From the NCBI GenBank assembly GCA_958510825.1, contig OY294045.1, positions 9,041,916-9,105,915 of the forward strand: a DNA stretch of 64,000 bases. Reading direction: 5' to 3'. The notes beneath the pieces were generated by a model. It made no database searches. It was given only the letters and a program-made list of their open reading frames with translations, and was not told the DNA's origin. The position numbers and the translations under genes were made by a program. The stretch comes from Brachypterus glaber. Its lineage: Eukaryota; Arthropoda; Insecta; Coleoptera; Kateretidae. Of the stretch, positions 4,622 to 42,700 are shown in pieces (positions within the stretch are counted from its first letter, which is position 1; every line of letters begins with the position of its first letter).

Positions 4622-4757
4622 AGCGAATTCAGCCAGTATAAACGTGTACGTAGATTTTATATTTAAATATAATTTCTACCGCATTCTTTCGGTATCTTTA
4701 GAACCGTACAGCGTGCAGTCAATTGTCATAGTTGGCCCATGCGCTTTAAACAACGAA

Positions 4758-4997
4758 CTAATAACTCTTCTCTCTAGAATAGGCATATCATTCGTAAAAA
4801 GTGATAAAAACGTAGCCAACATATACATTCCTCTGTCTTACTCGCACAGCTTTGTTCTAACAGAAACAACAATAACAGTTACTGGTAATTGTTATTGTTC
4901 ATGCCTGAATATACCTACTATTTGTTTACAAACAAACCGAGATGTTGGCGATACTTTATATTAACGGTATGCGTATTCTAGAGAGAAGAGTTATTAG
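4758..4997. mobile_element. MITE family Q, copy 1
   Basis: A 240-bp element with perfect 24-bp inverted ends beginning CTAATAACTCTTCTCTCTAG. The inverted repeat continues imperfectly outward as CAACGAA / CTCGTTGG. An open frame covering part of it and the piggyBac-like MITE upstream has no likeness to known proteins and is taken as chance. Confidence 0.85.
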
Positions 4998-5201
4998 CTC
5001 GTTGGCTTTAAACTATTCTGTTCAAAAATTCTCACTCGGGGCAATTCGTATTGGAAGAAAAAATGGCTGCGTTTCCGGTTCATGAATAAAATTTAAATTC
5101 TAAATACAAATTTTGAAATTCTCACCAAAACGTACACTGTAAAAAATAAACTAAATATTCAGTTTCAGAAGGATGGGAAATCGGAAGTTATTATCAACGA
5201 A
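4998..5201. repeat. Module R, copy 1, between two Q elements
   Basis: About 204 bp starting CTCGTTGGCTTTAAAC and ending GGAAGTTATTATCAACGAA. It recurs at 6136-6334. Its edges are inverted relative to each other (TTATTAGCTCGTTG against CAACGAACTAATAA), so Q and R modules share and alternate the same terminal repeat. Confidence 0.85.
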
Positions 5202-5441
5202 CTAATAACTCTTCTCTCTAGAATAGGAATATCATTCGTAAAAACTGATAAAAACGTAGCCAACATATACATTCCTCTGTCTTACTCGCACAGCTTTGTT
5301 CTAACAGAAACAACAATAACAGTTACTGGTAATTGTTATTGTTCATGCCTGAATATACCTACTATTTGTTTACAAACAAACCAAGATGTTGGCGATACTT
5401 TATATTAACGGTATGCGTATTCTAGAGAGAAGAGTTATTAG
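5202..5441. mobile_element. MITE family Q, copy 2
   Basis: Same 240 bp as copy 1 with a few substitutions, 444 bp downstream and in the same orientation. Its right end stops exactly at GAGTTATTAG and runs into unrelated GCAAAGACAAGG, so the outer CGTTGG part is missing on that side. Confidence 0.85.
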
Positions 5442-5874
5442 CAAAGACAAGGAAAGACCTTCAAAGCCGTTGCGGGATACTGTGATAAATGTGCCTAGCG
5501 CATCTGAGATAAACTTGCACATGCGCACTACTATTGTTGTTTTTGACGAGTATTTTTAACCTTAGTTTTGTGTGTCAAATAAAAATTGTAAAAAATTCAA
5601 CAAAAAACAATAAATATCTACAAAGAAACGTCGAAATAGTTTTTTAAAATTATTTTATAAGAATTTTTCGAGGTGTGTGAGTTTCGGGATTTTGTACACC
5701 TACTATGAGTACACCAGGGATTGGCCCTTTGCTCTTCATAAAGCAACAATACAGGTAAAGTTTAAAGTTATAAACAAATGCAGCAAAAAAACAATTAAAA
5801 CACAGTAGAAGTCGAAAAATTAACAGAAAAAAACGACGATCTGACAGTACTGACAGTATAAACAAACTACTATT

Positions 5875-12511: not shown

Positions 12512-15031
12512 TAATAATAATAATAATAATAATAATAAAGGTCTTTATTAAAATAAGTACAAAAGTTACAAGATTATTTTAACTATTGGGCGAGGTTTAG
12601 TTCGGCCGATAGATTTCTTGCTGAGCTTCTCAGGCACAACAAAAAGAGCTACCAGCCGCCTATTCTTCCACCTAACCCAGGGAGAGAATAATGACATAGA
12701 AAACAATATTAAATATAAAAAAAAATATATGAACATTTATAAAATATAAATAAATAGAAATAAATACATAAAAAATAAATTGGGTTCAGAATAAGTTTAT
12801 CAAAAAATAAGGATAAAAACGTATATCAGGTAGATAGAGACTGCAATTGTTTTTGAAATGTTAGCTTAAATAATTGTTTTTTAAAAGCAAGTAAAGATTT
12901 AGTATGTTTTAAATTAGCAGATAAGTCATTAAAGAACGTGGCAATGTTGTATGAGAATGACCGTTTATATAGTTCAGAACTGTGTTTAGAGACAGTAAGG
13001 GTGCTCTGAAAACGTATATTTATATTGTGAACATCAGATCTATAACGGATTTTTTGGTAAAGATATGGTGGTGATTGGTTAGATATTATCTTAAAAAACA
13101 GGCACGCAGAATGTAGATACCTACGGTTTTCCATATTTAGCCAATTTGCTTGGACAAATGTGTGACTTATATGATCATATTTTCTAATACCATATATTAA
13201 CCTCAAACAGGAGTTTTGTAGTTTCTGTATACGAACCGTATCCGTTCTGGTGAGACAGGGACCATAAACAACATCGCAGTAATTCATCTGAGACAGGACA
13301 AGAGATTCACACAACATAGTTTTAGTGCTTTTATTCAAATAGTATCTATTTTGGTAAATAATTCTTAAATTTGAGTAAGCTTTTTGTAAACATCTAGAGA
13401 CATGTTGAGTGAATCTAAAGTCCGTATCCACGGTCAATCCAAGGTTCTTAGCATTATCTGTATAGGTTATTACTGAGTTACAGCAAGGTCCATATTTAAA
13501 AATCGTTGTCTATCATTTTTTCGACCAAATAAAACAACGGTCGACTTACTAGCATTTAAATTCAAGCAATGTTTAACAGAGAGTTCATGAATATTTTTTA
13601 GATCAAAATTAAGAGCTCCAACTGCCTGTGGCGCCTCATCAAGTTTAAAGGACAAGGATAACTGGGTATCATCAGCATAAAAGTGGTCCACGCAAGATAA
13701 ACAAACTAAAGCAAAACATACAATATATATAATAAAAAGAATAGGGCCCAAAATGGAACCCTGTGGAACTCCTGTGAGCATACGTAAAAAACCTGATATT
13801 AAATTATCATAAAACACTGCTTGAAATCTATTAGTTAAATAATCAGTTAGCAAGTCAACCGCAGATACAGATAAACCAATAAAATGTAAAATAGACTTTA
13901 ATATCCTTGGATTGATCGTATCAAATGCCTTACTATAGTCCAAAAGTACCATTAAAGTTAACAGACCCTTATCCGTGGCAGATAAAATATCGTCAGTTAT
14001 TTTAAGAAGAGCTGTCGCACAACTATAGCCTGGTCTAAATCCAGATTGGGAAGAGGGAATAATTTCGTTAAAATCTAAATGTTGACGTAGTTGTTTTTCA
14101 ATTATTTTTTCTAGAATTTTGGAAAATGTAGGCAAAATACTAATAGGTCTTATATCGTTTAAGCTAGCAGGTTTGGAGACTTTCGGAAGTGGGATAACTA
14201 ATGCTTTCTTCCATAAACTTGGAAAAACTGATTTTTTTAAGCAAAAGTTCATAATGTGTGTAATATGGGGGAGAATATGTGGTACACAAAGTTGAATGGT
14301 TGATATATTTATACCATCACACCCTGTTGCTTTGCTTTTAATATTAGAAATTATATGCAACACTTCTGTTTCAGTGATTTCCTTAAAGTTTAAAATTGAC
14401 ATATCCTGGTTTTTAATATTATTACTATAATAATTTATAGTCTCTTCATCTGGCACCAATTTAGGTATAGATTGTATAAAATGATTATTAATCATTTCTA
14501 CATTAGAGAGCTCAGATGGTAAAGACTTAGAACATCGTTTACTCGGTAAGAAATCCAACTTTTTAAGTGTTGACCAGATAGTTTTAGAATTAGAATTTGC
14601 ACCATTTAGACTAGAATTATAAAAAATCTTTTTTTCCCTCTTAACTGCCAGCGTTACTATATTACGGAGCTCTTTATAATGTTGCCAGTGAGCGATATTT
14701 TTAGTTTTTTTATAACGACTAAGTGCTTTGTCTCTTGTTGACATCATATCTCGTAAGGTATCTGTTAACTAGGGTGAATATTTTTTTGTTATCCTGTAAG
14801 TTCTAAAAGGAGCATGTTTATCTAATAAAGTGGTTATATTACTATTCACGGGCCGTTTAATGCAAATAGACCAGCAAGCAATATAATTTACATAAAATCG
14901 CGGTTTGAGCAGATGCTGCAAAGGCTTAATTGTCGTTTAGTTACAAATTTCGACAAATTAATTTTTCAGACAAGGGCAAATGGCTGTTTTTTAGGTACTC
15001 GTCACGGTGTTCATGAAGATTTCAGCATATA
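12512..15031 (-). mobile_element. CR1/L2-type non-LTR retrotransposon, 5'-truncated
   Basis: On the minus strand the element ends in a (TTA)n microsatellite tail at 12512-12539, as CR1/L2-group elements do rather than in poly-A. Upstream are a 3' UTR, an RT-bearing frame (12826-14869) and then sequence that loses similarity near 14900. The endonuclease and ORF1 are missing. The 5' side meets a TA-flanked family U element at 15032. Confidence 0.8.
12826..14869 (-). pseudogene. Non-LTR reverse transcriptase, frameshifted
   Basis: The main open piece (13470-14747, 425 aa) has the RT fingers and palm: PLPKVSKPASLNDIRPISIL, SQSGFRPGYS, motif A LDYSKAFDT (about 269-277), GVPQGSILGP (326-335) and the catalytic FYADD (356-360). 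A frameshift at about 13440-13470 separates the C-terminal piece (12826-13437, 203 aa) with SQMNYCDVVYG and IQKLQNSCLR. Upstream of the first Met the frame continues as LLDKHAPFRTYRITKKYSP, then TAG at 14769-14771, probably from a Trp codon. Two lesions and loss of the N-terminal endonuclease make it inactive. Best placed among CR1/L2-like clades. Confidence 0.9.
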
Positions 15032-19612: not shown

Positions 19613-20669
19613 AATGGCGATTTCTCCCGTTAGGTTAGACAGGGACAAAAGTTCTACCCAACCCAGACAGCACATGATATCTTAAAGACGTCTTTTTTAG
19701 ATCTTAATTATGTCTGGACGCCTAAAGACATAAAAATTATATCTTATGGACTTCTTTTTAGGGATGTTTAAAAGATATCTGATTATGATGTCTATAAGAT
19801 GTCTTTTAAGTATCGGTACAAGACGTCTTAACTTCGATACTCATCGCTAAAAATAAATTAACCACAATCAACTATTAAAAAAATTAAAATTTTTTTAAAA
19901 ACAAAAAAATAAAAAAAAATTTTTTTCATTTTTTTTTTTAATTTTAACGAAAAAAATTAAAAAAATTAATTTTCAAAAAAAAAAAAAATTTTTAATTTTT
20001 TTAAGATCTTTTTTTGACAAACAAATTACCTCTCATTCTAATTCTTATTACGCTTTTTATATCAATACGACCGTACCTAGCAACGTAAATAGGAGGGGGT
20101 ATTTGTTGTAAAATCGCCTGTGCAAGGCGTCAGTAAGGCGTCTTAAAAAAGATGTCTTAAAGACGTTACCTTTTGTAACATACGACGTCGTTAAGACGTC
20201 TTTAAAATGCATATACGGCGAAAACCGACGTTCTTAAGACGCCTTGAATGACGAGTTACAACATCTTTAAGATCTCTTTAAGTCATCTTTGTGCTGTCTG
20301 GGAAAAAGGATAGAAGACATACATACACTCCGACCTCCACCCAACCAAACAAATTCTGTATTTGTTCTTTGTTGAACAAATACAATATTTACTTGGCCGG
20401 GCGAAAAGTGTAACTATATTATCTTTATTAAAGAAATTACTGGCGCCATCTAAATTTTAGTAGAATTATCTTATTCTACAGATTCACATTAGCTATGTTC
20501 GTTCGTGCCGCTCAGTGCTACACTTTCCGGCCAACCAAATAAATACTGTATTTGTTGTATGAAAAACAAATACAGTATTTATTTGGTTGGCTGGAAAGTG
20601 TAGCACAAATGAGATAAAGATAGGGTAGACGTCTTTTGTTTCATAATTCTAGTTGTAGAGAGCTCCATT
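19613..20669 (+). mobile_element. MITE family T, copy 2, split by an insertion
   Basis: AATGGCGATTTCTCCCG at the left, GAGAGCTCCATT at the right, TA on both sides. Removing 19662-20302 leaves 416 bp collinear with copies 1 (413 bp) and 3 (405 bp). The 88-bp hairpin of GCTACACTTTCCGGCCAACC lies at about 20516-20603. Confidence 0.9.
19662..20302. mobile_element. CCCAGACAGCAC element nested in family T
   Basis: A 641-bp insertion with perfect inverted ends CCCAGACAGCACA / TGTGCTGTCTGGG. Copies 1 and 3 of family T have the uninterrupted site TTCTACCCAAAAAGG; here it is TTCTACCCAA - insert - AAAAAGG, so about two A residues were duplicated. The body is built of AAGACGTCTTT-like motifs on both strands. 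No transposase. Superfamily not assigned. Confidence 0.88.
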
Positions 20670-25500: not shown

Positions 25501-25635
25501 TGTATAATAGACAAAAAGTTAAATTTCGATTTCGTAGGTTTATTACCCTCGGGCCGGCCCGATCGGCCGGCCCTCGGCTTCTAAAAACCTATTCAATCGA
25601 AAAACTTAACTTTTTGCCCTTGTATTATAAATAAC
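25501..25635. repeat. Hairpin with extremely GC-rich loop
   Basis: TGTATAATAGACAAAAAGTT with CGATTTCGTAGGTTTATT pairs with AACCTATTCAATCGAAAAAC and TTGTATTATA at the right. The loop CCCTCGGGCCGGCCCGATCG plus GCCGGCCCTCGG is itself palindromic and almost pure G+C. Confidence 0.85.
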
Positions 25636-25789
25636 TATAATCACAAGCATTAAAGTCTAATCAGACAAAACATAACTGACAACTATTCTAGATTCATAAA
25701 CTAAATTAAATTGTTTGATATTTACAAATTTAAAAAATCTATATAAAACATTTTACTATTCCTTAAAACGACTTTTGTTTGATTAACGC

Positions 25790-25868
25790 AGTTGTCCCTC
25801 CGAAATGACTGATCGATTTCGTGCTTTTTAGCACTCTTCAGAGCCACATATCGGTAGTAGGGACAACT
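25790..25868 (-). ncRNA. Type I hammerhead ribozyme 1
   Basis: Minus-strand core CTGAAGA, helix II GTGCT-AAAA-AGCAC, then GAAA, a palindromic helix III ATCGAT, and C17 at 25811 with cleavage expected between 25811 and 25810. Helix I pairs GTGGCT with AGTCAT, then CCGA with TCGG across internal loops, and closes with AGTTGTCCC / GGGACAACT. All conserved core positions are present. The short helix III suggests cutting as a dimer, as known for the newt and Penelope-type ribozymes. Confidence 0.85.
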
Positions 25869-26224
25869 ACGAAAATCAAATCTTTTCCATATATCTCTAT
25901 ATAGAGTTTAAAAATCGTTGTAAGGAAAAGCAAAAACAGCTAGCGACATCTACTGCTAAAAGCAGAGACTGGATAAACCTATCGACAGTCCAAAAAAGGA
26001 AGCAGTATTGGTTTCAAGAACCTATTGCACGCTGTCGATAGGGGGCAGATTAATCAATGCCACGGTGGACATTGCCGCCAATTGAATCCTAAACGCTAGG
26101 AGGTCACCTTTTACAGTGGTATCTGAATTAATAAACTAAATTAAATTGTTTGATATTTACAAATTTAAAAAATCTATATAAAACATTTTACTATTCCTTA
26201 AAACGACTTTTGTTTGATTAACGC

Positions 26225-26303
26225 AGTCGTCCCTCCGAAGTGACTGATCGATATCGTGCTTTTTAGCACTCTTCAGAGCCACATATCGGTAGTAGGGACA
26301 ACT
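26225..26303 (-). ncRNA. Type I hammerhead ribozyme 2, core mutated
   Basis: Same fold as ribozyme 1, 435 bp downstream. Core CTGAAGA and helix II are intact, but the conserved GAAA reads GATA (26252-26255), changing A14. That position is essential, so cleavage should be lost or very weak. Helix I is kept (AGTTGTCCC / GGGACGACT with a wobble pair). Confidence 0.82.
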
Positions 26304-26588
26304 ACGAAAATCAAATCTTTTCCATATATCTCTATATAGAGTTTAAAAATCGTCGTAAGGAAAAGCAAAAACAGCTAGCGACATCTACTGCTAAAAGCAG
26401 AGACTGGATAAACCTATCGACAGTCCAAAAAAGGAAGCAGTATTGGTTTCAAGAACCTATTGCACGCTGTCGATAGGGGGCAGATTAATCAATGCCACGG
26501 TGGACATTGCCGCCAACGCTTTTCCTTAAAAAGTCCAAACGATTTTTAAACTCTATATAGAGATATATGGAAAAGATTTGATTTTCGT

Positions 26589-26662
26589 AGTTGTCCCTAC
26601 TACCGATATGTGGCTCTGAAGAGTGCTAAAAAGCACGAAATCGATCAGTCACTGGGACGACT
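26589..26662 (+). ncRNA. Type I hammerhead ribozyme 3 (inverted copy)
   Basis: Plus strand: AGTTGTCCC, then GTGGCT, CTGAAGA at 26616-26622, helix II GTGCTAAAAAGCAC, GAAA at 26637-26640, ATCGAT and C17 at 26646. The 3' strand of helix I runs AGTCAC then TGGGACGACT, missing the TTCGG stretch of copies 1 and 2, so the middle part of helix I and its internal loop are altered. The core is complete. Confidence 0.83.
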
Positions 26663-26726
26663 GCGTTAATCAAACAAAAGTCGTTTTAAGGAATAGTAAA
26701 ATGTTTTATATAGATATTCTAGATTC

Positions 26727-27065: not shown

Positions 27066-27532
27066 CCGACAAAAGAGTGCAAACACCGTGCAGGTATGTA
27101 AAGAATAACAAAATCCTTCTGTTCGGTTTGAATGGAAAGAAATCGAAATCTAAAGTACTGCATTATGAAACATTAATGCAGGTTTTTTAATGAACTTTTG
27201 CAATTTCTGCAGCCGCAAATAAAAAGTCTATACAATTCCTCGCTCGTTAACGATGTATTTATCTTTGATTCAGAACAAAAAATATTCAAAACAAGTACAC
27301 GGAAATGTCATTGATGAAATAGAGATAATTATTTTTTAACCGTTAATATTCAGCCAGTTGAAACGGTTTTATCCGTTTTTTTAAACCAATTATATGCTTA
27401 TGCTTACATAAAATAATATTCATCTCAGTTATTTGTTATTGTTTTTTAAAAAATAAAAATTATATCCAATTTCGAAAATCAAAAATATTGAGATCCATAA
27501 TTTAACGTACGTATACTTATAGTGAAGAGGTA

Positions 27533-27918
27533 TTATTTTAAAAAATCAAACTTTTAGTCATCATTCACTTTATTAATAATTTAGGTTAGTTACCGGTTTC
27601 GATTATCATCGTCAGACTACAAGAAATTACACAAGTTAGAGATTATTTTAAGAAAAACAAACTTTATCTTACCTAGCCAAAAATATATAAAAATACTATA
27701 TCCATAAAAGGTCAAAAACAACCATAAGAAAACATTTATAAATTTAAAACACAGTAACGTAACGTCCACTTCAATTTACAAGACAATATAAACATAATAT
27801 TAACAATAAAATCACAAAACACGTGTTTAAACATACAGTATATAAATAATAAATGTCAAAAATCAAGAGTTTTTTTGAAAATCTATAATCAATATTAGGG
27901 ATGTTCTAAGCTAAGGTG
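27533..27918 (-). repeat. Penelope-like pLTR, left copy
   Basis: Inverse of 29947-30332 over 386 bp, nearly identical: TCATTCACTTTATTAATAAT, TTAGTTACCGGTTTCGATTA through to GATGTTCTAAGCTAAGGTG. One small difference is seen near 30118-30122 (TTTTACATT against TTTAAATTT in inverse). High identity implies one recent event. Confidence 0.9.
27578..27628 (-). ncRNA. Hammerhead-like core in pLTR (left)
   Basis: Minus strand: AATTT..TAGT-CTGACGA-TGATAATC-GAAA-CCGGT-A-ACTA..AAATT. The CTGANGA and GAAA strings, palindromic helix III ACCGGT, GTA cleavage site and a two-part helix I are all present. Helix II is the weak point: TGATAATC can pair only by borrowing G8-A9 (GAT/ATC). Penelope-like elements are known to carry hammerheads here; activity of this version is doubtful. 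Confidence 0.55.
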
Positions 27919-28000
27919 TGTAAGAAAAAGAAGTAGAAGAAGAAAAGGAAAAGAAAAGCAGAAGAAGGAAAGAAAAAGAAAAGGAAGAGGAAGAAGAATA
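27919..28000. repeat. Polypurine tract
   Basis: About 75 bases almost purely A and G on the plus strand (GAAGTAGAAGAAGAAAAGG and more), in the 3' UTR of the Penelope-like element just inside its left terminal repeat. It could form triplex DNA or act as a priming or pausing site; no function is shown. Confidence 0.8.
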
Positions 28001-28178
28001 GGTCTAAGCATTTTAAGGGATGGGTAAAATATTTTTAAACACTATTCAACACAATCCTGAAAAATTGAAATTGAAACATTAAGAAATGTTATTTCTTAAA
28101 ATTCCAATCTACTTATTGCAATAATTATACACAAATAGATACATAAATGTATGCACATACATAAAACAACCGCAAGTA

Positions 28179-29946
28179 TTACAAGAATAAGCTAAAAAGT
28201 GTAGTGTTAGAACGGGGGAACGTAAGCTGTTTATTTAAAATATTTTCAGGATACTTATGAGCAAAACTACTAATCTCTAATTCTTCATAAAGATCCAATT
28301 TAACTCCACCATCTTGTATATGTAGAATTTCAAAATTAGAATTCCGCTCGAATGTATGTGTTTCGTCTCTTAGGTGATTTAAAAAATGTGAGAACTTCTT
28401 TCCTTCTAAATGTTCGCCCAATCTAACACCAAAAGATCTTCCCGTTTGTCCAATATAAAAACACTCACAAGAGTTACAGTTGATCTTATAAACTCCCGAT
28501 TTTCACAACTTTTCAATAGGGTCTTTGTTTTTAATTAAGTGGGTTTTAATATTTGAAAGTGGTTTAAATGAGACTTTAAATGAACCTCTAAATAAATTTG
28601 CAATACTTTGACTAATTGGACCTATGTAAGGAATTGATATATATTTAATTTCATTTGTGATATTTAACAAAGAAGTGAGGTTGTTGTTAGCCAATTTAAT
28701 TTGTTTTCTTCTTAATAGTTTGTTTATCAGTTCTGGGTTGTAGCCATTCATGTAAGCAATGTATTTTATTGTATTTAGCTCTGTTTTAAAATCTATAGAG
28801 GAAAGAGGTAACGATAGTAAACGATGAATCATACTATGAAATGCAGCCATCTTGTGGTTAAAAGGGCTGTTGGAAGTAAAAGGAATAACATGATCAGTCT
28901 GTGTCGGTTTTCTAAAAATGCTGAACGAATGCCTATTGTTAACCCTAGATACAGTCAGATCCAAGAAATTAATCTTATTACTTTCTTCAATTTCAAAGGT
29001 TAAATTTATACTATCATTCAAAGTATTTAGAAAATCAAAAAAGACAAAAAATTGCATTAAAGTACCTCTCCAGTATAGTAAAATATCGTCAACATATCGA
29101 AGCCAGTACTTTATGAAAAGCAGACATGAATGACCAGAACCAAAAACTAAAGATTCAAAAAAATTCATAAATATTTCTGCCAGTTTTGGACTCATTGGTT
29201 CACCCATAGCTAAACCGTCTTTACTTCTATAGTGCTTACCATTAAAAGTGAAGAAATTCTGTTCGGCACAATGCTTGATTAAAGCTTTAAAAGATGATCC
29301 TTCATTATCGGATAAGTCGCTGTCAGTTATGAGTTCATCCACCAGACTTAAGACTTTTTTGATTGGAACATTGGTAAACAAATCTTTCACATCCAAACTA
29401 ACGAAAAAACCTTCCTTACCAAGGTCCAAGTCTTTGACCTTATTAACAAACTCGATTGAGTTCTTGACTGATCTCTTTGGTTTAAAGATATCCAATTTTA
29501 TAAATGTTTTGTTTAAATACTTCGATAATTTATAAGTGGGAGCATTTACACAACTTACTACCGGTCTGTAGGGTATACCTGCTTTATGTATTTTTGGCAA
29601 ACAATAGAGTCTTGGGGTTACGGGATTCATTACAGCCAACTTAAGATCGGTATATTTGTTTATAAATGTTTTGTGTGTGTTTATTAATTTAACAGTTTTT
29701 CTATTATAGCTAATAGCTGGGTCTATTTTCGGATCGTATTCTTTAAAACCGTTATCTGTCAAGAACTCATTAACCTTGTCAACGTAGTCAGTTTTGTCCA
29801 AGACAACCAAACATGAACTTTTATCTGCCTTTGTAAGAAATAAATTTTCGTTTTTTATCTTTAATTTAAGTTGTTTTAAGATTTTATCATCTTCAGTTTT
29901 AGACGACGAATTTACTCGACTAAATTCATGTTGTAGTTTTCTTAGG
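28179..29946 (-). pseudogene. Penelope-like RT with GIY-YIG endonuclease
   Basis: One minus-strand frame of about 590 codons interrupted by a single TGA at 28503-28505. The N-terminal part reads KLRCLRKLQHEFSR and LTKADKSSCLVVLDK. The RT has CLPKIHKAGIPYRPVVSC, motif A SLDVKDLFTNVPI, GLAMGEPMSPKLAEIF and catalytic YVDD (29096-29085). It continues with NFLDLTVSR, and FNHKMAAFHSMIHRLLSLPL. In the same frame past the TGA come SGVYKINC, FYIGQTGRSFGVRLGEH and the rest of a GIY-YIG nuclease. RT copies the RNA and the nuclease nicks the target. It lacks the first part of the protein, removed at the right pLTR junction. One stop and one truncation make this copy non-autonomous, but the decay is slight. 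Confidence 0.9.
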
Positions 29947-30332
29947 CACCTTAGCTTAGAACATCCCTAATATTGATTATAGATTTTCAAAAAAACTCTT
30001 GATTTTTGACATTTATTATTTATATACTGTATGTTTAAACACGTGTTTTGTGATTTTATTGTTAATATTATGTTTATATTGTCTTGTAAATTGAAGTGGA
30101 CGTTACGTTACTGTGTTTTACATTTATAAATGTTTTCTTATGGTTGTTTTTGACCTTTTATGGATATAGTATTTTTATATATTTTTGGCTAGGTAAGATA
30201 AAGTTTGTTTTTCTTAAAATAATCTCTAACTTGTGTAATTTCTTGTAGTCTGACGATGATAATCGAAACCGGTAACTAACCTAAATTATTAATAAAGTGA
30301 ATGATGACTAAAAGTTTGATTTTTTAAAATAA
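29947..30332 (+). repeat. Penelope-like pLTR, right copy (inverted)
   Basis: Starts CACCTTAGCTTAGAACATCC exactly where the coding frame is cut, and ends at GTTTGATTTTTTAAAATAA. Equal in length to the left copy (386 bp). Confidence 0.9.
30237..30287 (+). ncRNA. Hammerhead-like core in pLTR (right)
   Basis: Mirror of the left copy: CTGACGA at 30250-30256, GAAA at 30265-30268, ACCGGT at 30268-30273, with helix I from TAGT/ACTA and AATTT/AAATT. The same helix II caveat applies. Being on the plus strand, it faces the opposite way to the coding region. Confidence 0.55.
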
Positions 30333-30489
30333 AAATTATATTGTAAACAAATATTTCAATAGGATTTAAAATTATTAATTACACGTCCCCTTTCTATTTA
30401 AAAAAATGTTATCCTTGCCCGCTGTGCCACCAAAAAATCAAATATACACTAAAAAAATGTATTGGGTTGTTTTTTAGGTTTATTATTTT

Positions 30490-31614: not shown

Positions 31615-31665
31615 GGGGGGGGGGGGGTAATGTACGTAAAAGCATCACGGCAGTGAACGTGTTAA
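31615..31665. repeat. G13 run and solo piggyBac-like end
   Basis: Thirteen consecutive G at 31615-31627, then GGCAGTGAACGTG followed by TTAA (31662-31665), a variant of the AGCGAACGTG-TTAA end. No left partner was seen upstream. Confidence 0.6.
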
Positions 31666-32068
31666 TGGCGATTTCTCCCGTTAGATTAGACAGGGACAAA
31701 AGTTCTACCCAAAAAGGATAGAAGACATACATACACTCCCACTTCCACCCAACCAAACAAATTCTGTATTTGTTCTTTGTTGAACAAGTACAATATTTAA
31801 TTGGCCGGGCGAAAAGTGTAACTATATTAAAGAAATTACTGGCGTCATCTAAATTTTATTAGAATTATCTTATTCTATAGATTCACATTAGCTATGTTCG
31901 TTCGTGTCGCTAAGTGCTACACTTTCCGGCCAACCAAATAAATACTGTATTTGTTGTATGAAAAACAAATACAGTATTTATTTGGTTGGCTGGAAAGTGT
32001 AGCACAAATGAGATAGAGATAGGGTAGACGTCTTTTGTTTCATAATTCTAGTTGTAGAGAGCTCCATT
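31664..32068 (+). mobile_element. MITE family T, copy 3
   Basis: AATGGCGATTTCTCCCG to GAGAGCTCCATT, TA on both sides, with the full GCTACACTTTCCGG hairpin. Its start overlaps the TTAA of the solo piggyBac-like end. It carries the empty site TCTACCCAAAAAGG used to define the nested insertion in copy 2. 32069-32377 beyond holds nothing recognisable. Confidence 0.88.
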
Positions 32069-33026: not shown

Positions 33027-35879
33027 TTAAACATTAATAGAATTTACATTACAGTTCAAAAATTCTTCAAGTGTGTAAAACGGGTTATTCGAAAAATAAC
33101 GTTTAATTTTTTCTTTAAATTTCCGAGGGCCCAGATCAGTAAAAGAACGAGGTAACTTATTGTAGGTTTTGATTCCTAGATACCTGGGTCCCTTTTCAAA
33201 TCCGGCCGTTTTATGCCTAGGTATGCTAAGAGCATGAGGTTGCCTAGTGTTAATAGAGTTTAGATCCCTATTTGCCACAAATTTTTCCTTATTTTGGTGA
33301 ACAAAAAGTATCAAATTGTATAAGTACAGTGAATAAACCGTCATTATTTTGTTATCTATAAATAATTGTTTACAGTGACTTCTGTGTTTTGCACCACAGA
33401 GCGTTCTGACAATTTTCTTTTGAATAATGAAAATACGATCTAGAAGTGTCGAGCCCCCCCAGATAATTAGACCATATTCAATGTGGCTTTTTATGCTTGC
33501 ATTGTAAAAAGACAGGAGAAGACTTCTGGAGACGTTTTGTTTTAAATTATATAGTGCATAATGACAGCTGTTTAATTTTTTTGCAATATGGTTTACGTGG
33601 ACATTCCACGCTACTTTTTCTTCTAGCGAAATTCCAAGTAGTTTAAATTCTGTTACTTGTGGTACTGACTTTTTGTCACAGTAAATAAGGATACTACTGT
33701 CATTGTTTAATTTATTAAATTTTAGGATTGCTGATTTTTTTGGGTTTAAAATAAGAGAATTCTGCCTTGACCATGTGGCCATTAAATCTGTTAGAATTTT
33801 TAAAAGTTCCAAGAAGTCCTCCCTTGTACAGCATGATATTAATGAAGTATCGTCTGCATATTGGCAAAGCTTAAACCTCTTCTTAAACCTGTCGGGAATG
33901 CCATTTAATAAAAATTTTAAAAGGTCATTACTAAAAATTAAAAATAATAATGGGGAGAGAATTGCCCCTTGAGGTGTCCCTCTGCGGATATTTTTTGTGG
34001 ACGATTTGATTTTAACATTTGCCCGCTCACCTATGTCTGAAGTTAGTTCTACATATTGTTGCCTATTTTTGAGGTAGGAAATAAACCATTCGAGAGTTTT
34101 TCCCACTATACCATAGGATTCTAATTTTAAAATAATCAAATCAATGTCAAGGACATCAAACGCCCTTGTCATGTCAAAGAAGAGCCCTGAAACTATACTT
34201 TCTCCATTATCTACATTTTCTATTACGTAATCCAAAATTTCAAATAAGGCATAGCTGGTACTTAGCCCAGATCGAAAGCCATAATGGGAGGATGAAAGTA
34301 AATTGTACTTGTCAAAGTAGTTAACTAACCGATTACACATAACTTTGTCAATAATTTTTGCAAAGACAGACAGGTTAGATATTTGTCGATAATTAGTTAC
34401 ATCAGTTTTTATCCCTTTTTTGTGAATGACTACTACTTTTGCTTTTTTAAGTTGTTCTGGATATTTACCTTCCTTGAAAGAAGCATTTATCCAACTAGTG
34501 ACAACTGGGGTTATATTATCTATAATCAAACGTAAAATGTTACAAGGAATTTCGTCGGGGCCCGAGGACCATTTTTTTGAGGTTGCTATCATTGCAGTTT
34601 TTACCTCAGTCTCGGTTACCTCTCCACAGAACATGCTATGTGGTGTTTGCCTCTCACAAGTGTAGTTTATAGTTTCAGGGTTCAGACCAGGAATATCCTG
34701 TGTAAAAAATGTGTTGAAAATGTCCGCAACCTGCTTGGGGTCACTGACAGTCTCACCATCATATTCAACAGTTATTTTATTTATTTTTTTACTTCTAGTG
34801 GGGTCAAGGGTGTCTGAAATTAATTTCCAGGCATTCTTGACAATATTATCATCCTTGTTTAGTAATTTATTGTTATATTCCTTTTTTTTATTTGATAATT
34901 CTTTCTTATATTTATTTTTTAATTTAGAATATTGTTTTTTTATTTGATTATTATTGGTGTTTTTCCAAAGCCAGTGTAAATCACTAACCTTTTGTGCCAT
35001 TTCTTTAAGTTCTTTTGTTATCCACATACCTTTTTTTGGTGTTTTATACTTCACCTTTTCAACTGGAAAACTTTCATTAAATATTTTATAAAATATGTTA
35101 AAAAAATTATCAAATTTATCATCTGCTAGAGCTGATCTGTGAACTAAGCCCCAGTCTGCTGTAGCAATAGCTTCAACAAATTTGTTTTTATTATTTTGTG
35201 AGAAATCTCTTCGATAAATAAATTTATTAGAACTTTTTGGTTGGCCAGATTTATCTACACTTAGTGATATCACTTTGTGATCAGTGAATTCCGCTGACTT
35301 TAGCGAAACACTATAAGTGAACTCACAATTTGTGAAAATATTATCAAGTAGTGCCTTGTACCGAGTTGGTTTATTCACTGTTGGTTTAAGATTAAAACCA
35401 TTTAGTATATCTAGAAATCTGTTGACATTACGGTGCTTGGTGAGCAAGCAAATGTTAAAGTCTCCACTTAAAAAAATAAATTTACATTTACCTTTGACAA
35501 AATTAAGAAGGTTTTCAAGCTTACACAGAAATGTGTCCATGTTACCATTTGGGGCCCGATACATAGATATATATATGCATTTAGCATCATTCAATACAAA
35601 CTTGCAGCATGTGAATTCAAACACTCTTTCAATACATTTTATTGGGGTATCTAACTCCTCAACTTTAAAATCTGAGCGGGCAAATAGGGAAGTACCTCCT
35701 CCAGCTCGTTCTGACCTAAAAAAATTTGAAATATTAACATAATTTTCTAAGCTAAAATGTTTAATTTCGTGATTTTTTAACCACGTTTCACACACTGATA
35801 ATAAATTAGGATTAAAATTTGATAAAAACAAGTCAAGGTTTAGTTTTTTCTTCCTTACACTTCTACTGTTGATTTGCAT
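33027..35879 (-). CDS. CR1-like ORF2: AP endonuclease and reverse transcriptase
   Basis: 950 aa, full length for the group. N-terminal endonuclease/exonuclease/phosphatase domain (about 1-205) with its active-site series: N4, E31 in CETW, Y107 in MYRAPN, GDFN 139-142, and TDH 199-201. This domain nicks target DNA. The RT (about 430-720) has WSSGPDEIP, VVVIHKKG, YGFRSGLST, motif A FFDMTRAFDVLD (568-579), RRGTPQGAILSPLLF and catalytic YADD (674-677). The C-terminal region has EYGLIIWGG and QKKIVRTLCGAK. No RNase H. The first Met overlaps the end of ORF1 by 17 nt, so translation is probably coupled or reinitiated. All catalytic residues are present; it could be active or very recently so. ORFs on the other strand are shadows. 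Confidence 0.93.
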   Translation of the reverse strand: MQINSRSVRKKKLNLDLFLSNFNPNLLSVCETWLKNHEIKHFSLENYVNISNFFRSERAGGGTSLFARSDFKVEELDTPIKCIERVFEFTCCKFVLNDAKCIYISMYRAPNGNMDTFLCKLENLLNFVKGKCKFIFLSGDFNICLLTKHRNVNRFLDILNGFNLKPTVNKPTRYKALLDNIFTNCEFTYSVSLKSAEFTDHKVISLSVDKSGQPKSSNKFIYRRDFSQNNKNKFVEAIATADWGLVHRSALADDKFDNFFNIFYKIFNESFPVEKVKYKTPKKGMWITKELKEMAQKVSDLHWLWKNTNNNQIKKQYSKLKNKYKKELSNKKKEYNNKLLNKDDNIVKNAWKLISDTLDPTRSKKINKITVEYDGETVSDPKQVADIFNTFFTQDIPGLNPETINYTCERQTPHSMFCGEVTETEVKTAMIATSKKWSSGPDEIPCNILRLIIDNITPVVTSWINASFKEGKYPEQLKKAKVVVIHKKGIKTDVTNYRQISNLSVFAKIIDKVMCNRLVNYFDKYNLLSSSHYGFRSGLSTSYALFEILDYVIENVDNGESIVSGLFFDMTRAFDVLDIDLIILKLESYGIVGKTLEWFISYLKNRQQYVELTSDIGERANVKIKSSTKNIRRGTPQGAILSPLLFLIFSNDLLKFLLNGIPDRFKKRFKLCQYADDTSLISCCTREDFLELLKILTDLMATWSRQNSLILNPKKSAILKFNKLNNDSSILIYCDKKSVPQVTEFKLLGISLEEKVAWNVHVNHIAKKLNSCHYALYNLKQNVSRSLLLSFYNASIKSHIEYGLIIWGGSTLLDRIFIIQKKIVRTLCGAKHRSHCKQLFIDNKIMTVYSLYLYNLILFVHQNKEKFVANRDLNSINTRQPHALSIPRHKTAGFEKGPRYLGIKTYNKLPRSFTDLGPRKFKEKIKRYFSNNPFYTLEEFLNCNVNSINV

Positions 35880-36891
35880 GAGGCCTATTGTTGAATGATC
35901 TGTTTTGCGGTCGATATTTTTGGTATTTTCGCCTGTTTTGAAAGCGAAAATCTTGGATTGTCACATGTCTAGGCCAACAACCTGGATTCATTATTGCATT
36001 GTAGTGCTCTTCAGGTATTTCCACCTTATAGGCTTTGTGTGAACCGTAGGATTTAGTCTCCGTCACAAATATTTTGTTTACATCTTCTTCTTTGAGGTTA
36101 AGTTTTGACATAACATGATTTATCATTTTTTCTGGTGTTGTTCGCATGCTAAGGTTGGTAACAAAGAGAGATTTTGTAGGAGGAGCGGGTTCCAAATTAC
36201 AGGAATCTAGATTACCCGTAACTTTCTTTGTTTGCCGTACGGACTGATGTTTTCTAGGTGTGACGCCCTCTATTATTGAAGATCCAACACCATTGTTATT
36301 AGTATGCTCACCGCTAGATGACGCTGAAACATTTGCTGCTGGACGCGGGGCCCCATTTTTGGGGCGTTGGCTCATAATTTCTTGAGCGCTGTTTGAATTT
36401 AGGAAGTTACCTGATTCTTTTTTTTGCAAGCTGTCCTTCATATTGCCATTCATTGGTTTTTCTGTCTGTTTGACATGTTTACAGGTGTCGCAAACTGTTA
36501 TACCAGACTCCAAAACATTTATCTTGAAATGTAAAAGCTGAATAGTCTCTTGAAGACTTTTTATATAATTCTTGAGATTTGGTACCTCCGATGATTGCGA
36601 TTTATCCATAATCGTGCTGACAGAACTATCATTGTCACTTAGGTTGAGGTTAGAATCTTCGCCGGCTTGGTCCAAGCATTCTTTGCACATGTAATCAGCC
36701 TCTTCTGACGAAAGTTGAGTACATCTTAGGTGCACAAAACGTAAACACGATTCGCACTGCAATTTTTTAGCCTTTGTAATACCAGTTTGACACAAAATAC
36801 ACGTTTTTGATGATTTTTGGCTAGATTGACTTGAAAAAGTACCTTCATCGGTCGCCATTTTTAGTAGCGCTTTCTCTTCATATGAAAACAT
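35863..36891 (-). CDS. CR1-like ORF1: PHD-finger RNA-binding protein
   Basis: 342 aa. Residues 31-72 form a C4HC3 PHD-type zinc finger: C31-x2-C34, C46-x2-C49, H54-x2-C57, C69-x2-C72. A leucine-rich helix at about 104-130 could be a coiled coil for trimerisation or dimerisation. Residues about 240-318 (KSLFVTNLSMRTTPEKMIN to HVTIQDFRF) look like a degenerate RRM-type fold, and the tail is Arg/Asn/Gln-rich, fitting nucleic-acid binding. ORF1 proteins chaperone the RNA in the RNP. A second Met at residue 12 (MATDEG) is an equally plausible start. It ends inside ORF2. Confidence 0.85.
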   Translation of the reverse strand: MFSYEEKALLKMATDEGTFSSQSSQKSSKTCILCQTGITKAKKLQCESCLRFVHLRCTQLSSEEADYMCKECLDQAGEDSNLNLSDNDSSVSTIMDKSQSSEVPNLKNYIKSLQETIQLLHFKINVLESGITVCDTCKHVKQTEKPMNGNMKDSLQKKESGNFLNSNSAQEIMSQRPKNGAPRPAANVSASSSGEHTNNNGVGSSIIEGVTPRKHQSVRQTKKVTGNLDSCNLEPAPPTKSLFVTNLSMRTTPEKMINHVMSKLNLKEEDVNKIFVTETKSYGSHKAYKVEIPEEHYNAIMNPGCWPRHVTIQDFRFQNRRKYQKYRPQNRSFNNRPHANQQ

Positions 36892-37199
36892 AATTCATTT
36901 GCTATAAGACCTTCCTAATTCTTTAATTCAAATTTCTTTGGTCTTGTATGAAATGCTTGAAAGAAACTAAAATTCTAAGTGGCCTTCAGTTAAAGTCAAA
37001 ATTGTTTCGAATGAAGTGAAGCATCTGATGAAAGAGTTTTTCTTTTATCATAAGAAATTTGTGTCTTGTGTCAAGACAACACAGTAATTGGCACAAAAGT
37101 ATTTTTCTTAATTCAAAATATCTGCTTATTGTGTCAAAACTCTACGACATTTTAATAAAATTAAGAAATTCTTGATCCTTACTCATATTGGAGTTGATT

Positions 37200-38373
37200 T
37201 AAATAAACCATAGAAAAAATGTTATCTCTCCAAAATATAAATTTATTGTCTATTAAACAAACATTACAGCGACAATTGTTTCGACTTTTTTAACATAAAG
37301 TCATTTTCAAGCTACAAATAATGAAAAATTAGGTTGAAAATGGTACAATTCCTTTTAGAAAACCTTACTTTTTAAATTTATAAACAAAATAACTTGAGTA
37401 CACATTATTAGAAATGTCATACTGACCTTAACTCTATTATTTTTATAAAATCTTAAAAATTTAAACAAAAAGAAAACTACAATAAGTTAAAATAAAATAA
37501 ATTAATGAAATCTAAAATTTTAAATTGAATAAAAATCTGGGACATCTATCATAAAATAATCCAAACTATACTTCAAACAGACTAAAGGAATTATCTTTAA
37601 ACTGCAAAAAAGGTAGATAAATATAAAAAAAGAAAAAGATTAATTTATATTTAACTTGGTAATTGGAATAAAATTGAAGAGGTGGCAGCAAATTCACATC
37701 AAAAACTCAAAAACAAACCAAAAAGGGAACAAAATTTTTGGAAAAGTTTTTAAACAAAAATATTTACTCCAAAGATTAATGCTCTGTAAGGGGACAGGCA
37801 ACAATATCCGGTCTAACGTTTAAAACATTATTGTAAACATAAATGTTCAAAAAATCTATTTGTTCATTAACTAACCTATCCCTATGGAACCTTTTGTTGT
37901 ACAAAATGGCAAATTGTTCTAGCAGATCTGTAACTCTATCGTTCCTCGAAATATGCAAAACGCTTACTTCATTTTCATAGTCATGGTTGTTGCACAACAC
38001 ATGGTTGGCAAAGTTGGACTTATAGTTAAGACCTGCTAGATCAACATTATTTGCACGTAGTAAACGAAAGTGTTCGTTGGTTCTTATACAGATTTTACGA
38101 TAACTACGGCCTATGTAAAAGCTATCACAGGAACAGGTCAGTTTATAAACGCCGCTCCTTTCCAAAGGATTAATTTTGTCCTTTTTATGGGATAATAGGA
38201 GGTTGAGGTTAGAGGGGGCTGAAAAGGACACGGAAATTTTAAATTGAGATAGGAGTTTTTTGATTTTTAAAGAAGGGGGACCTATGTATGGAATACTACA
38301 AAAGGATGATGGGTTTAGGGTTGAAATAGGTATAAGGGAGGTGACTTTTGCTAAACTATATTTTAATAAATGC
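37200..38373 (-). mobile_element. Penelope-like element 2, 5'-truncated
   Basis: Only the C-terminal end of the protein and the 3' region survive. The 5' break falls exactly at the CACTGCCCAGTAAAAG terminus of a family Y repeat (38373). Different lineage from element 1, with low protein similarity and different 3' sequence. 37340-37775 is AT-rich 3' UTR. Confidence 0.75.
37261..37318 (-). ncRNA. Degraded hammerhead-like motif of Penelope-like element 2
   Basis: Minus strand: CTTGAAAAT, then GACTTT..AAAGTC as helix II, GAAA, palindromic ACAATTGT and C. Order and spacing match a Penelope-type hammerhead, with GAAA and a good helix II, but the CTGANGA core reads TTGAAAA. Probably a relic. Confidence 0.4.
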
Positions 38374-38375
38374 AC
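37776..38375 (-). pseudogene. Penelope-like GIY-YIG endonuclease fragment
   Basis: Reads FCSIPYIGPPSLKIKKLL (the RT-endonuclease linker; element 1 has YISIPYIGPISQSIANLF), then SGVYKLTC, FYIGRSYRKICIRTNEHFR and the nuclease C-terminus ending at TEH. Catalytic GVY, YIG, Arg and Glu-type positions are visible. The open frame extends a few codons further upstream to a Met supplied by the flanking family Y repeat, so that start is a chimera, not the native one. The RT is entirely missing. Confidence 0.82.
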
Positions 38376-39220
38376 TGCCCAGTAAAAGAGCTTTCCCATT
38401 TTTCACCTCCGCGCGTAAAATGGATTTTTTTATTATCAGATTCACTTTCAGCAACCACCTTAGTATACCAATTTTCACGAAAACTACCCTCTGCCCCTTC
38501 GGGGGTGAAGTTAGAATTTTGTTATAATCAGATTCCCTTTCAACAACCTCAAAAAGCCCAATATACCAATTTTCACGAAAACTACCCCTCACCCCTCAAG
38601 GGGTGGATTTAGAATATTTTTATTATCAGATTCACTTTCAACAACCTCAAAAACCCCAATAAACCAGTTTTCACGAAAACTACCCCCCACCCTCGGGGGT
38701 GAAATTAGGAAAAAAATATTATCAGATTTATATTCGTCGACCACAAAAACCCCTATGTACCAATCTTTACAAAAATATTTAAAAATATTTACCCCCCGAC
38801 CCCCGTGGGGGTGGAGTTAAAATTTTTTTATTATCAGATTCAATTTCAGCAACCTTGAAAACCCCGATACATCAATTTTCAAATTTTTGTAAAAAAAATG
38901 TATTTTTCCTCATTTGCCCCCTTGCCGCACACCAATGTTCACCAAAAACAATCCCGAGCGAGAACTTTTGGTAACATACCTATATGCCAAATTTCAAAAA
39001 GTCTCTAGCTTAAAGCGTTCTTAAGTTATCGTGCTCACAAGATTTCCCGGACAGACCGACCGATCGAGCGACAATTTTTTTCTTTGCTCGAAATTGATTT
39101 CTATCGACGTAAAACGTCATAAAACGCAAAAATACACACGAATACAAGCCTTTCCGAAATTTTCAAAAAAATTTCAAAATGGGAAAACAAAATATTTCCC
39201 GTGGTGCAAAAAAATGAAGG
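38373..39220 (+). repeat. Family Y element with ~100-bp internal tandem array
   Basis: Starts CACTGCCCAGTAAAAG, TTTTCACCTCCGCGCG, then five units of 90-115 bp, each with TTATCAGATTCACTTTC, an AATTTTCACGAAAACTACCC stretch and a variable CCCC..GGGGTG block. It ends in TCCCGGACAGACCGACCG and AAACGTCATAAAACG. Copies: 40288-40443, 47660-48359 (inverted), 58235-58560. Small open frames inside are repeat artefacts. Confidence 0.8.
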
Positions 39221-41546: not shown

Positions 41547-42700
41547 CACGGTGTATTTTTACTACCTAGTATCTTAAAGGGTTCATTAGTTCAAAAGTCG
41601 TAGTTCCCCCTTAACCCATTTTTAGACATATATTTATAGAAAATATGAAGAAAAGTTCCTATATGATTTATATATAAATAAATGATGTTTAGGGGGAGCT
41701 GCTACCCTTTATAAGTGGCTAAAAAACAGTTTTTATTTAATAACTAACGAACCCTTTAAGATATAGCAACGAGATTTTTGCTCGTGATCCAATATTAATA
41801 AGGCCTATCTTCATATGTTATTTTTGTGTCGTTATTTTATCCAGGGATGTTCGAAACGGGGGGATTTATCAGTTTTTTGCCCCAAACTTCTTTTTGTGTA
41901 ACTTTTTTTGTATGTTTTTTAATACTACTACTAGAATAGTATTCCTTAGGTAAAAACACATAAAAAAGGTACTTTTGTTGTAGTACGGTAGGATTAACCG
42001 TTTTCGAGCAAAATTAATTTGAAGGTAAAATTTTACGTTTTTAGGAAGACAAATTTAACATTAAAAAAAAAATTGAATGATACATAGTGAATGTACAAAA
42101 ACAAAAACAAAACAAAAAGTTCCTATATGATTTATATATAAATAAGTGATGTTTAGGGGGAGCTGCGACCCTTTATAAGTGGCTAAAAAACAGTTTTTAT
42201 TTAATAACTAACGAACCCTTTAAGATATAGAAACGAGATTTTTGCTCGTGATCCAATATTAATAAGGCCTATCTTCATATGTTATTTTTGTGTCGTTATT
42301 TTATCCAGGGATGTTCGAAACGGGGGGATTTATCAGTTTTTTGCCCCAAACTTCTTTTTGTGTAACTTTTTTTGTATGTTTTTTAATACTACTACTAGAA
42401 TAGTATTCCTTAGGTAAAAACACATAAAAAAGGTACTTTTGTTGTAGTAGGGTAGGATTAACCGTTTTCGAGCAAAATTAATTTGGAGGTAAAATTTTAC
42501 GTTTTTAGGAAGACAAATTTAACATTTAAAAAAAATTTGAATGATACATAGTGAATGTACATCAAAAACTAAGAATAAATCTTCACAACTTTTTTTCTTA
42601 GTTTTTCATGTAAAATCACCCTTTAATTTTGAAAGGCTTAAGATATTAATAAAATTGGTCGAGTTTTGGGATATAAGGCAAAAAGAAAACAACGCCAAAA
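41547..42700 (+). mobile_element. Family W element, copy with tandem duplication
   Basis: TA-CACGGTGTATTTTTACTAC opens it, followed by W-type interior (AACGAACCCTTTAAGATATA, AGGATTAACCGTTTTCGAG). The right part has the TTTTCATGTAAAATCACCC type of centre, but no clean right terminus is seen. Confidence 0.65.
41651..42578. repeat. 464-bp tandem duplication
   Basis: TTCCTATATGATTTATATAT starts both units (41656 and 42120). The units are nearly identical over 464 bp (for example AATAAATGATG against AATAAGTGATG). The join is an A-rich ACAAAAACAAAAAC stretch. Confidence 0.9.

Follow-up and report, generated by a model that had tools for sequence, protein, structure and literature searches.

Which enzyme moves the small hammerhead-bearing elements known as retrozymes through animal genomes? 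According to the excerpts of three papers used here, animal retrozymes carry no motif that reveals the mover, LINEs or Penelope-like elements (PLEs) being the candidates and PLEs strong ones (PMC7761336, PMC7229834, PMC11722881). The question is raised by a locus in the window, the 64,000-nucleotide stretch of DNA analysed here, in which a 1,020-bp retrozyme insertion (25696–26715), with the 12-bp direct repeat TATTCTAGATTC on both sides, lies ∼0.7 kb from a PLE. Its parts are listed below; circle positions are numbered from the first base after the predicted cut (1) to C17 (435), and A and B denote the two sites at which outer ends fall.

25684–25695, no strand: left copy of the target duplication, TATTCTAGATTC (exact flank repeat)
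25696–26516, minus strand: direct arm, 1.9 units of 435 bp (sequence comparison, outer-end mapping)
25790–25868, minus strand: hammerhead of unit 1, core intact, predicted cut between 25811 and 25810
26225–26303, minus strand: hammerhead of unit 2, with U in place of A14 (GAUA), hypothetical cut between 26246 and 26245
26517–26538, no strand: junction filler between the arms, 22 nt, with short unit-matching pieces in both senses
26539–26715, plus strand: inverted arm, 177 nt, with its outer (RNA 3′) end at site A, circle ∼74
26589–26662, plus strand: hammerhead of the inverted arm, core intact, predicted cut between 26646 and 26647
26715–26726, no strand: right copy of the target duplication, TATTCTAGATTC (exact flank repeat)

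A preliminary description of this DNA had recognised two direct 435-bp non-coding units and an inverted partial third, and this layout is borne out. The direct copies are spaced by exactly 435 bp, matching at 98% over 300 nt with four substitutions in 385 nt, and the inverted third copy forms arms of 114–115 nt that are 99–100% complementary. The direct copies have their RNA sense on the minus strand, and the outer (RNA 3′) end of the direct arm, at 25696, is at site B (circle ∼114–115). The 435-bp unit has 37% G+C. Directly to the left of the retrozyme, at 25510–25620, a short element made of inverted repeats is seen by eye, its palindromic centre being very rich in G+C.

Each copy contains the parts of a type I hammerhead, namely CUGAAGA, a 5-bp helix II with an AAAA loop, GAAA (GAUA at 26246), and a long, interrupted helix I from which 5 nt are missing in the inverted arm. 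Helix III, described beforehand as palindromic, does read AUCGAU, equivalent to one pair with the palindromic loop UCGA. The predicted cuts follow C17 at 25811 and 26246 on the minus strand, 435 bp apart as had been proposed, and at 26646 on the plus strand. The claim that all three copies bear a hammerhead stands for those at 25811 and 26646, which are intact, and is weakened at 26246 by GAUA in place of GAAA. A14 is an essential base of the hammerhead core; since it is changed in this direct ribozyme, the window locus itself should not release a 435-nt monomer, and the expectation of such an RNA from the tandem pair has to be dropped for this copy. Among the genome loci read (see below), the core is intact in 92 of 102 core-spanning units, and 19 of the 35 loci contain a neighbouring pair of intact ribozymes.

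The window has two exact-core hammerheads with a 5-bp helix II, at 25841 (minus) and 26616 (plus), each of them inside the retrozyme; in a relaxed scan these two score 11.2, against at most 7.8 in six Markov controls. Neither scan finds another hammerhead of comparable quality in the window. A one-mismatch candidate at 4701 was discarded, its score of 6.9 lying within the control range (up to 7.8), as were tandem dimers of 464 bp (41651–42561) and 444 bp (near 4751–5442), neither of which has an exact-core hammerhead; the 464-bp-period dimer, with 98% matches, is another repeat family. The covariance-model check suggested in the preliminary description gave a mixed outcome. At the gathering score the retrozyme has no Rfam match; below it, Hammerhead_HH9 (RF02275) matches all three copies with 28.4, 28.1 and 25.1 bits (cut-off 52), E being 0.00011 to 0.0012 on 1.2 kb and 0.006 to 0.066 when the window is searched as a whole, a search in which 43 miRNA-family rows outscore these matches. 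As RF02275 stays below its cut-off, Rfam alone would not settle the identity of the hammerhead. Exact ribozyme patterns gave no hits in IMG/VR and GTDB contigs, records near the window possibly being excluded from that search, and a looser pattern found six IMG/VR contigs, none of which, by eye, has matching helices.

Further genomic copies, whose absence had been named beforehand among the findings that would refute the retrozyme reading, are abundant. The animal's own genome (648 Mb, 842 contigs) contains at least 131 matches, counts of the retrozyme being lower bounds because 40 of 1,084 first-look candidates were scored. Grouping by position gave 40 loci, of which 35 were read, the window and 34 fetched (L074 and L075 being measured on the longer L020 and L021); the other five, including an array of about ten units on C2, are outside the counts. 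The loci read contain arrays of up to five complete units plus parts. Divergence from the majority letters, position 363 left out, is 0.00% in five loci and 1.39% at most, and this low divergence implies that many of the insertions are young.

These copies also bear on the idea that the genome has captured an infectious, viroid-like RNA. The 435-nt circle is strongly self-paired, as such an RNA would be, folding to −131.3 kcal/mol compared with −88.0 kcal/mol (sd 5.0) for 100 shuffles, none of which is as low (z −8.7). Against this, the circle lacks both an antisense CTGANGA core and an endless reading frame, the longest frame being 69 aa, and the many near-identical genomic copies have target duplications. 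We regard capture of a viroid-like RNA as very unlikely.

An inverted arm is present in 28 of the 35 loci read (L091 by eye), so the inverted third copy in the window is not accidental and points to the mechanism of insertion. The outer ends of the insertions cluster at two places, A at circle 67–84 (typically 71) and B at 109–120 (typically 114), the larger A values being due to chance matches to the A+T-rich flank. In every one of the 25 scored two-armed copies, those with both outer ends readable, an A end is paired with a B end (p 6e-8 if ends were independent and A and B equally frequent), the scored list and the windows for A (60–92) and B (105–125) having been set after the ends had been read. 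For L068 and L084, BLAST ends were used, as the ungapped walk had stopped inside the unit. Ten loci are outside the 25. L091, with a very short inverted arm, matches the A/B rule by eye and is uncounted; L087 and L093, both two-armed and cut on the left, have B as their right end; four loci are one-armed, with A as the sole 3′ end in L077 and L079 and B in L088 and L092; L090 is fragmented, L096 is cut and L099 enters masked letters.

Exact flanking repeats of 11–15 bp accompany 21 of the 25 scored two-armed copies, compared with repeats of at least 11 bp in 11 of 600 control pairings of left flanks with right flanks from other loci. The remaining four comprise L069 and L085, with no clear repeat, and L094 (8 bp) and L100 (7 bp), at the edge of the fetched stretch.

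The two fixed ends bear directly on self-priming, in which the first cDNA folds back and the direct arm serves as template for the inverted one. For head-to-head PLE copies this route, with an antisense template, is favoured by the authors of the rotifer study in the part used here (PMC3846280), and it would also explain the variants common to both arms that are described below. A fold-back copy should, however, end where the first arm ends, whereas the outer ends differ in 25/25 copies, and the only 3′ end of a one-armed copy can be either A or B. We regard self-priming as improbable.

The neighbouring PLE provides a direct comparison for this end pattern. Its features are as follows.

27466–30332, minus strand: PLE whose 3′ part is repeated in inverted orientation, with PLE site B at the left end and PLE site A at the right
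27591–27615, minus strand: minimal hammerhead-like motif CTGACGA..GAAACCGGTA (motif scan)
28179–28502, minus strand: GIY-YIG nuclease frame, in the same frame as the reverse transcriptase with one stop codon between
28503–29966, minus strand: reverse transcriptase frame (RVT_1), 5′-truncated (frame, domain match)

The flanks share 16 bp (27450–27465 and 30326–30341, overlapping the right end). A second, inverted copy of the hammerhead-like motif starts on the plus strand at 30250, and the motif of each arm has the palindromic loop CCGG. The named PLE relatives are mostly from beetles, with locust, mosquito and coral lower, the best being 43% identical. A protein search of the genome for the PLE gave at least 90 matches (88 of 2,248 candidates scored) in 30 loci, and of the family's two-ended copies seven out of seven have one A end (+48 to +59) and one B end (+127 to +133) past the predicted cut, as placed by BLAST. 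The copies counted are L037 (the window copy), L040, L041, L043, L060, L064 and the composite L038/L039, the latter two loci bounding, on our reading of their positions and a shared flank of ∼11 bp, what is probably one composite insertion. The B end of L041 coincides with the edge of the fetched stretch, and without it the rule stands at 6/6. Flank repeats are 16 bp at L037 and 13 bp at L060, and none is clear at L040 or L041. Uncounted are the one-ended L042, L044, L052, L053, L058 and L062 and the tandem or internal L045, L054, L055 and L063.

Loci L037–L066 include several PLE families with differing hammerhead-like motifs, each having a palindromic loop III (CCGG, TGCA, CTCGAG core, GCGC). 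L059, considered as a PLE bearing the retrozyme hammerhead, is instead a partial retrozyme insertion beside a PLE nuclease gene and is uncounted. In the window, a frame at 37776–38402 resembles, by eye, the terminal part of a further PLE and has a GIY-YIG-like start; its sole Pfam match, to POC3_POC4, is below threshold. Comparison of the retrozyme with the 30 PLE loci, L059 left out, gave nothing above the reversed-sequence control, and an 11-mer common to the retrozyme and the PLE tails is not above chance, 280 of 2,985 random stretches scoring as high and 67 sharing an 11-mer.

Paired ends of this kind have a biochemical background. In the part of the Anolis study used here, both strands of the target are cut and extended by the PLE protein, and its use of two neighbouring internal start sites explains the 30–40-bp PLE tail; in vitro, no difference in start site was seen between top and bottom strand, and no need for hammerhead cleavage (PMC11167929). 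By our own subtraction from the values in that part, the main start lies 85–92 nt past the hammerhead cut. Since no strand difference was seen there, the strict A/B pairing found here is not simply a prediction of that work. Rotifer PLE copies, in the portion of PMC3846280 used, have inverted pLTRs, an optional 31-bp tail on one of them and target duplications of 8–10 bp, Pen2a being an example in which one of the inverted pLTRs has the 31-bp tail and the duplication is 9 bp. The pairing of one A with one B end in the retrozyme, a rule also followed by the PLE family, supports PLEs as candidate movers of animal retrozymes, and we consider a non-autonomous retrozyme moved by Penelope-like enzymes to be the best explanation of the insertions, and a probable one.

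Movement by a LINE, with ordinary twin priming inverting a 5′ piece, has to be weighed here. The window contains two LINE-like reverse transcriptase frames, at 33027–36894 (950 aa, open, with distant relatives of which the best has 31% identity) and at 12826–14768, and the length of the target duplications fits LINEs equally well. Twin priming would be expected to start the direct piece at the 3′ end of the RNA and the inverted piece at internal positions that vary, whereas both outer ends of the retrozyme are fixed sites, as in PLEs, the end comparison covering retrozyme and PLE copies. We regard a LINE mover as very improbable, even with hammerhead repeats of Nematostella, which have 15-bp target duplications, having been likened to LINEs by their authors in the part of PMC4918200 used.

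If PLE enzymes are the movers, the form of RNA that they copy may be approached through the units themselves. The template was read across the cut in all 35 loci, and so was ligated or uncut there. Among 126 variant-by-locus cases with at least two covering units, 98 are private to one locus; 86 of these are in one unit and 12 in two or more, and seven of the 12 are in both arms, in L095 (position 41), L071 (183), L070 (303), L100 (343) and L082 (42, 52, 402). In L095, L071, L070 and L100 the variant is in every covering unit and both arms. L082 has the units a-b-c-a in its direct arm and c-a in its inverted arm, the order that would be expected of a trimeric circle. Together, the both-arm variants and this order suggest that circular RNA may have been copied from both cut target strands, gene conversion between the arms being an alternative explanation of the both-arm variants. 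Mean differences are 1.22% between opposite arms, 1.00% between different loci and 0.69% within the same arm, so that one circle per insertion is not proven by within- versus between-locus variation alone.

The alternative template is a linear multimer, in which PLE enzymes would copy read-through transcripts of arrays that had been cut at one ribozyme and left uncut at others. The average similarity of the arms does not favour a single molecule, and unprocessed RNA was the main in vitro substrate in the part of the Anolis study used (PMC11167929). Three of eight one-armed rows have 5′ ends no more than 5 nt from the cut, namely circle positions 4, 5 and 433 (p 8e-4; the eight include L090, L091, L096 and L099, which are not clean one-armed copies), two of them holding about two to three units, as if the cDNA had run off hammerhead-cut RNA. 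Two of these three copies have no clear target duplication. A linear multimer is opposed by the four loci whose variants are in every covering unit and both arms, by the period of three in L082 and by the inner ends of two-armed copies, which do not pile up at the cut (1/52). We consider it rather unlikely.

Comparison with known systems places the element. Its label as a retrozyme, given in the preliminary description, is upheld by non-coding tandem units, a type I hammerhead, target duplications of ∼12 bp, dispersed copies and the presence of PLEs in the genome. There is a type I hammerhead in each of its short, non-coding tandem units of low G+C, no LTR, and dispersal with target duplications longer than 4 bp (11–15 bp in 21/25; no empty allele was seen). 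By the features tested it is a non-LTR retrozyme of the animal kind, self-cleavage and RNA circles being predicted, with indirect signs of them in the one-armed 5′ ends near the cut and in the variants common to both arms. The animal non-LTR retrozymes of Acropora, Mytilus and axolotl, in the portion of PMC7229834 used, resemble it in tandem non-coding units, type I hammerheads, low G+C, target duplications longer than 4 bp, a predicted highly paired circle and PLEs in the genome, and its single-pair helix III closed by a palindromic tetraloop recurs in axolotl HHR_Amex1. Its size of 435–436 nt compares with 170–400 nt for the expressed retrozymes there, genomic repeats of 150–450 bp being mentioned, and the same portion describes direct tandem repeats, with no mention of regular head-to-head arms or two fixed ends. 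The retrozyme class is already known; the insertion anatomy, with its fixed A and B ends, is the new part.

The plant LTR retrozymes, as given in the part of PMC4918200 used, are likewise hammerhead-bearing and non-autonomous and are thought to spread via circular RNA, but they have type III hammerheads in LTRs, 4-bp target duplications, a PBS and a PPT; the type I hammerhead and ∼12-bp duplications rule out such an identity here. PLEs of the Penelope/Poseidon type with GIY-YIG nucleases, in the parts of PMC11167929 and PMC3846280 used, share inverted arms, a tail on one end only, target duplications of ∼10–16 bp and a hammerhead upstream of both ends. The retrozyme correspondingly has inverted arms with a tail on one of its two outer ends (25/25) and target duplications. 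It differs from the PLEs fetched in having no open reading frame of its own and no sequence in common with them; with neither its own reverse transcriptase nor a GIY-YIG frame, it is at most a PLE passenger. The minimal hammerheads of newt satellite 2 and of PLEs act as dimers and have a palindromic, very short helix III. The retrozyme helix III is palindromic and very short like theirs; its helix II, of 5 bp, and its extended helix I exceed in length those of the PLE motif in the window.

These observations may be drawn together in a mechanism. Genomic copies would be transcribed, and the hammerheads would cut the RNA into monomers, sometimes multimers, probably aided by palindromic helix III pairing between units; a host ligase would then close the cut RNAs into circles. 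A PLE enzyme, combining reverse transcriptase and GIY-YIG nuclease, would bind the circle and make a ∼12-bp staggered cut in A+T-rich DNA. Each cut strand would prime one cDNA, starting at site A on one strand and, ∼43 nt away, at site B on the other, and both cDNAs would run round the circle, sometimes for several laps. Their joining where they stop would give a head-to-head insertion with a flanking target duplication. Extension of a single strand would give a one-armed copy, whose cDNA may leave the template where the hammerhead has cut the RNA. On the general form of this proposal, in which animal retrozymes are PLE passengers and one circle, trimeric ones included, would template both strands from fixed A and B starts over several laps, we find the chances evenly balanced.

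The outer ends of dozens of young insertions are a countable signature common to retrozymes and PLEs of the same genome, making the question of the mover testable in any genome that has both. They also indicate the kind of trace that copying from circular RNA may leave in DNA, and, if the proposal is true, the lopsided end pair could identify PLE-moved retrozymes in any genome. The literature searched, which covered few subscription papers, gave no account of retrozymes with inverted two-site ends.

Some variation lies outside this argument. Variants at circle position 363 (G/A) and at ∼239–240 (435 or 436 nt, one extra A in a homopolymer) go largely together and define two subfamilies. In L073 (G000:C2:72895700-72899300) private variants are nested along one array: the unit nearest the B end lacks 427T, the next four have it (a changed A13) and the last two also have 401T, a pattern that may reflect unequal crossing-over or some copying of copies. 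Elsewhere in the window, a palindromic repeat with many sub-cut-off miRNA-family matches is present in three copies (2514–2926, 20256–20669 and 31664–32068) and looks like a MITE.
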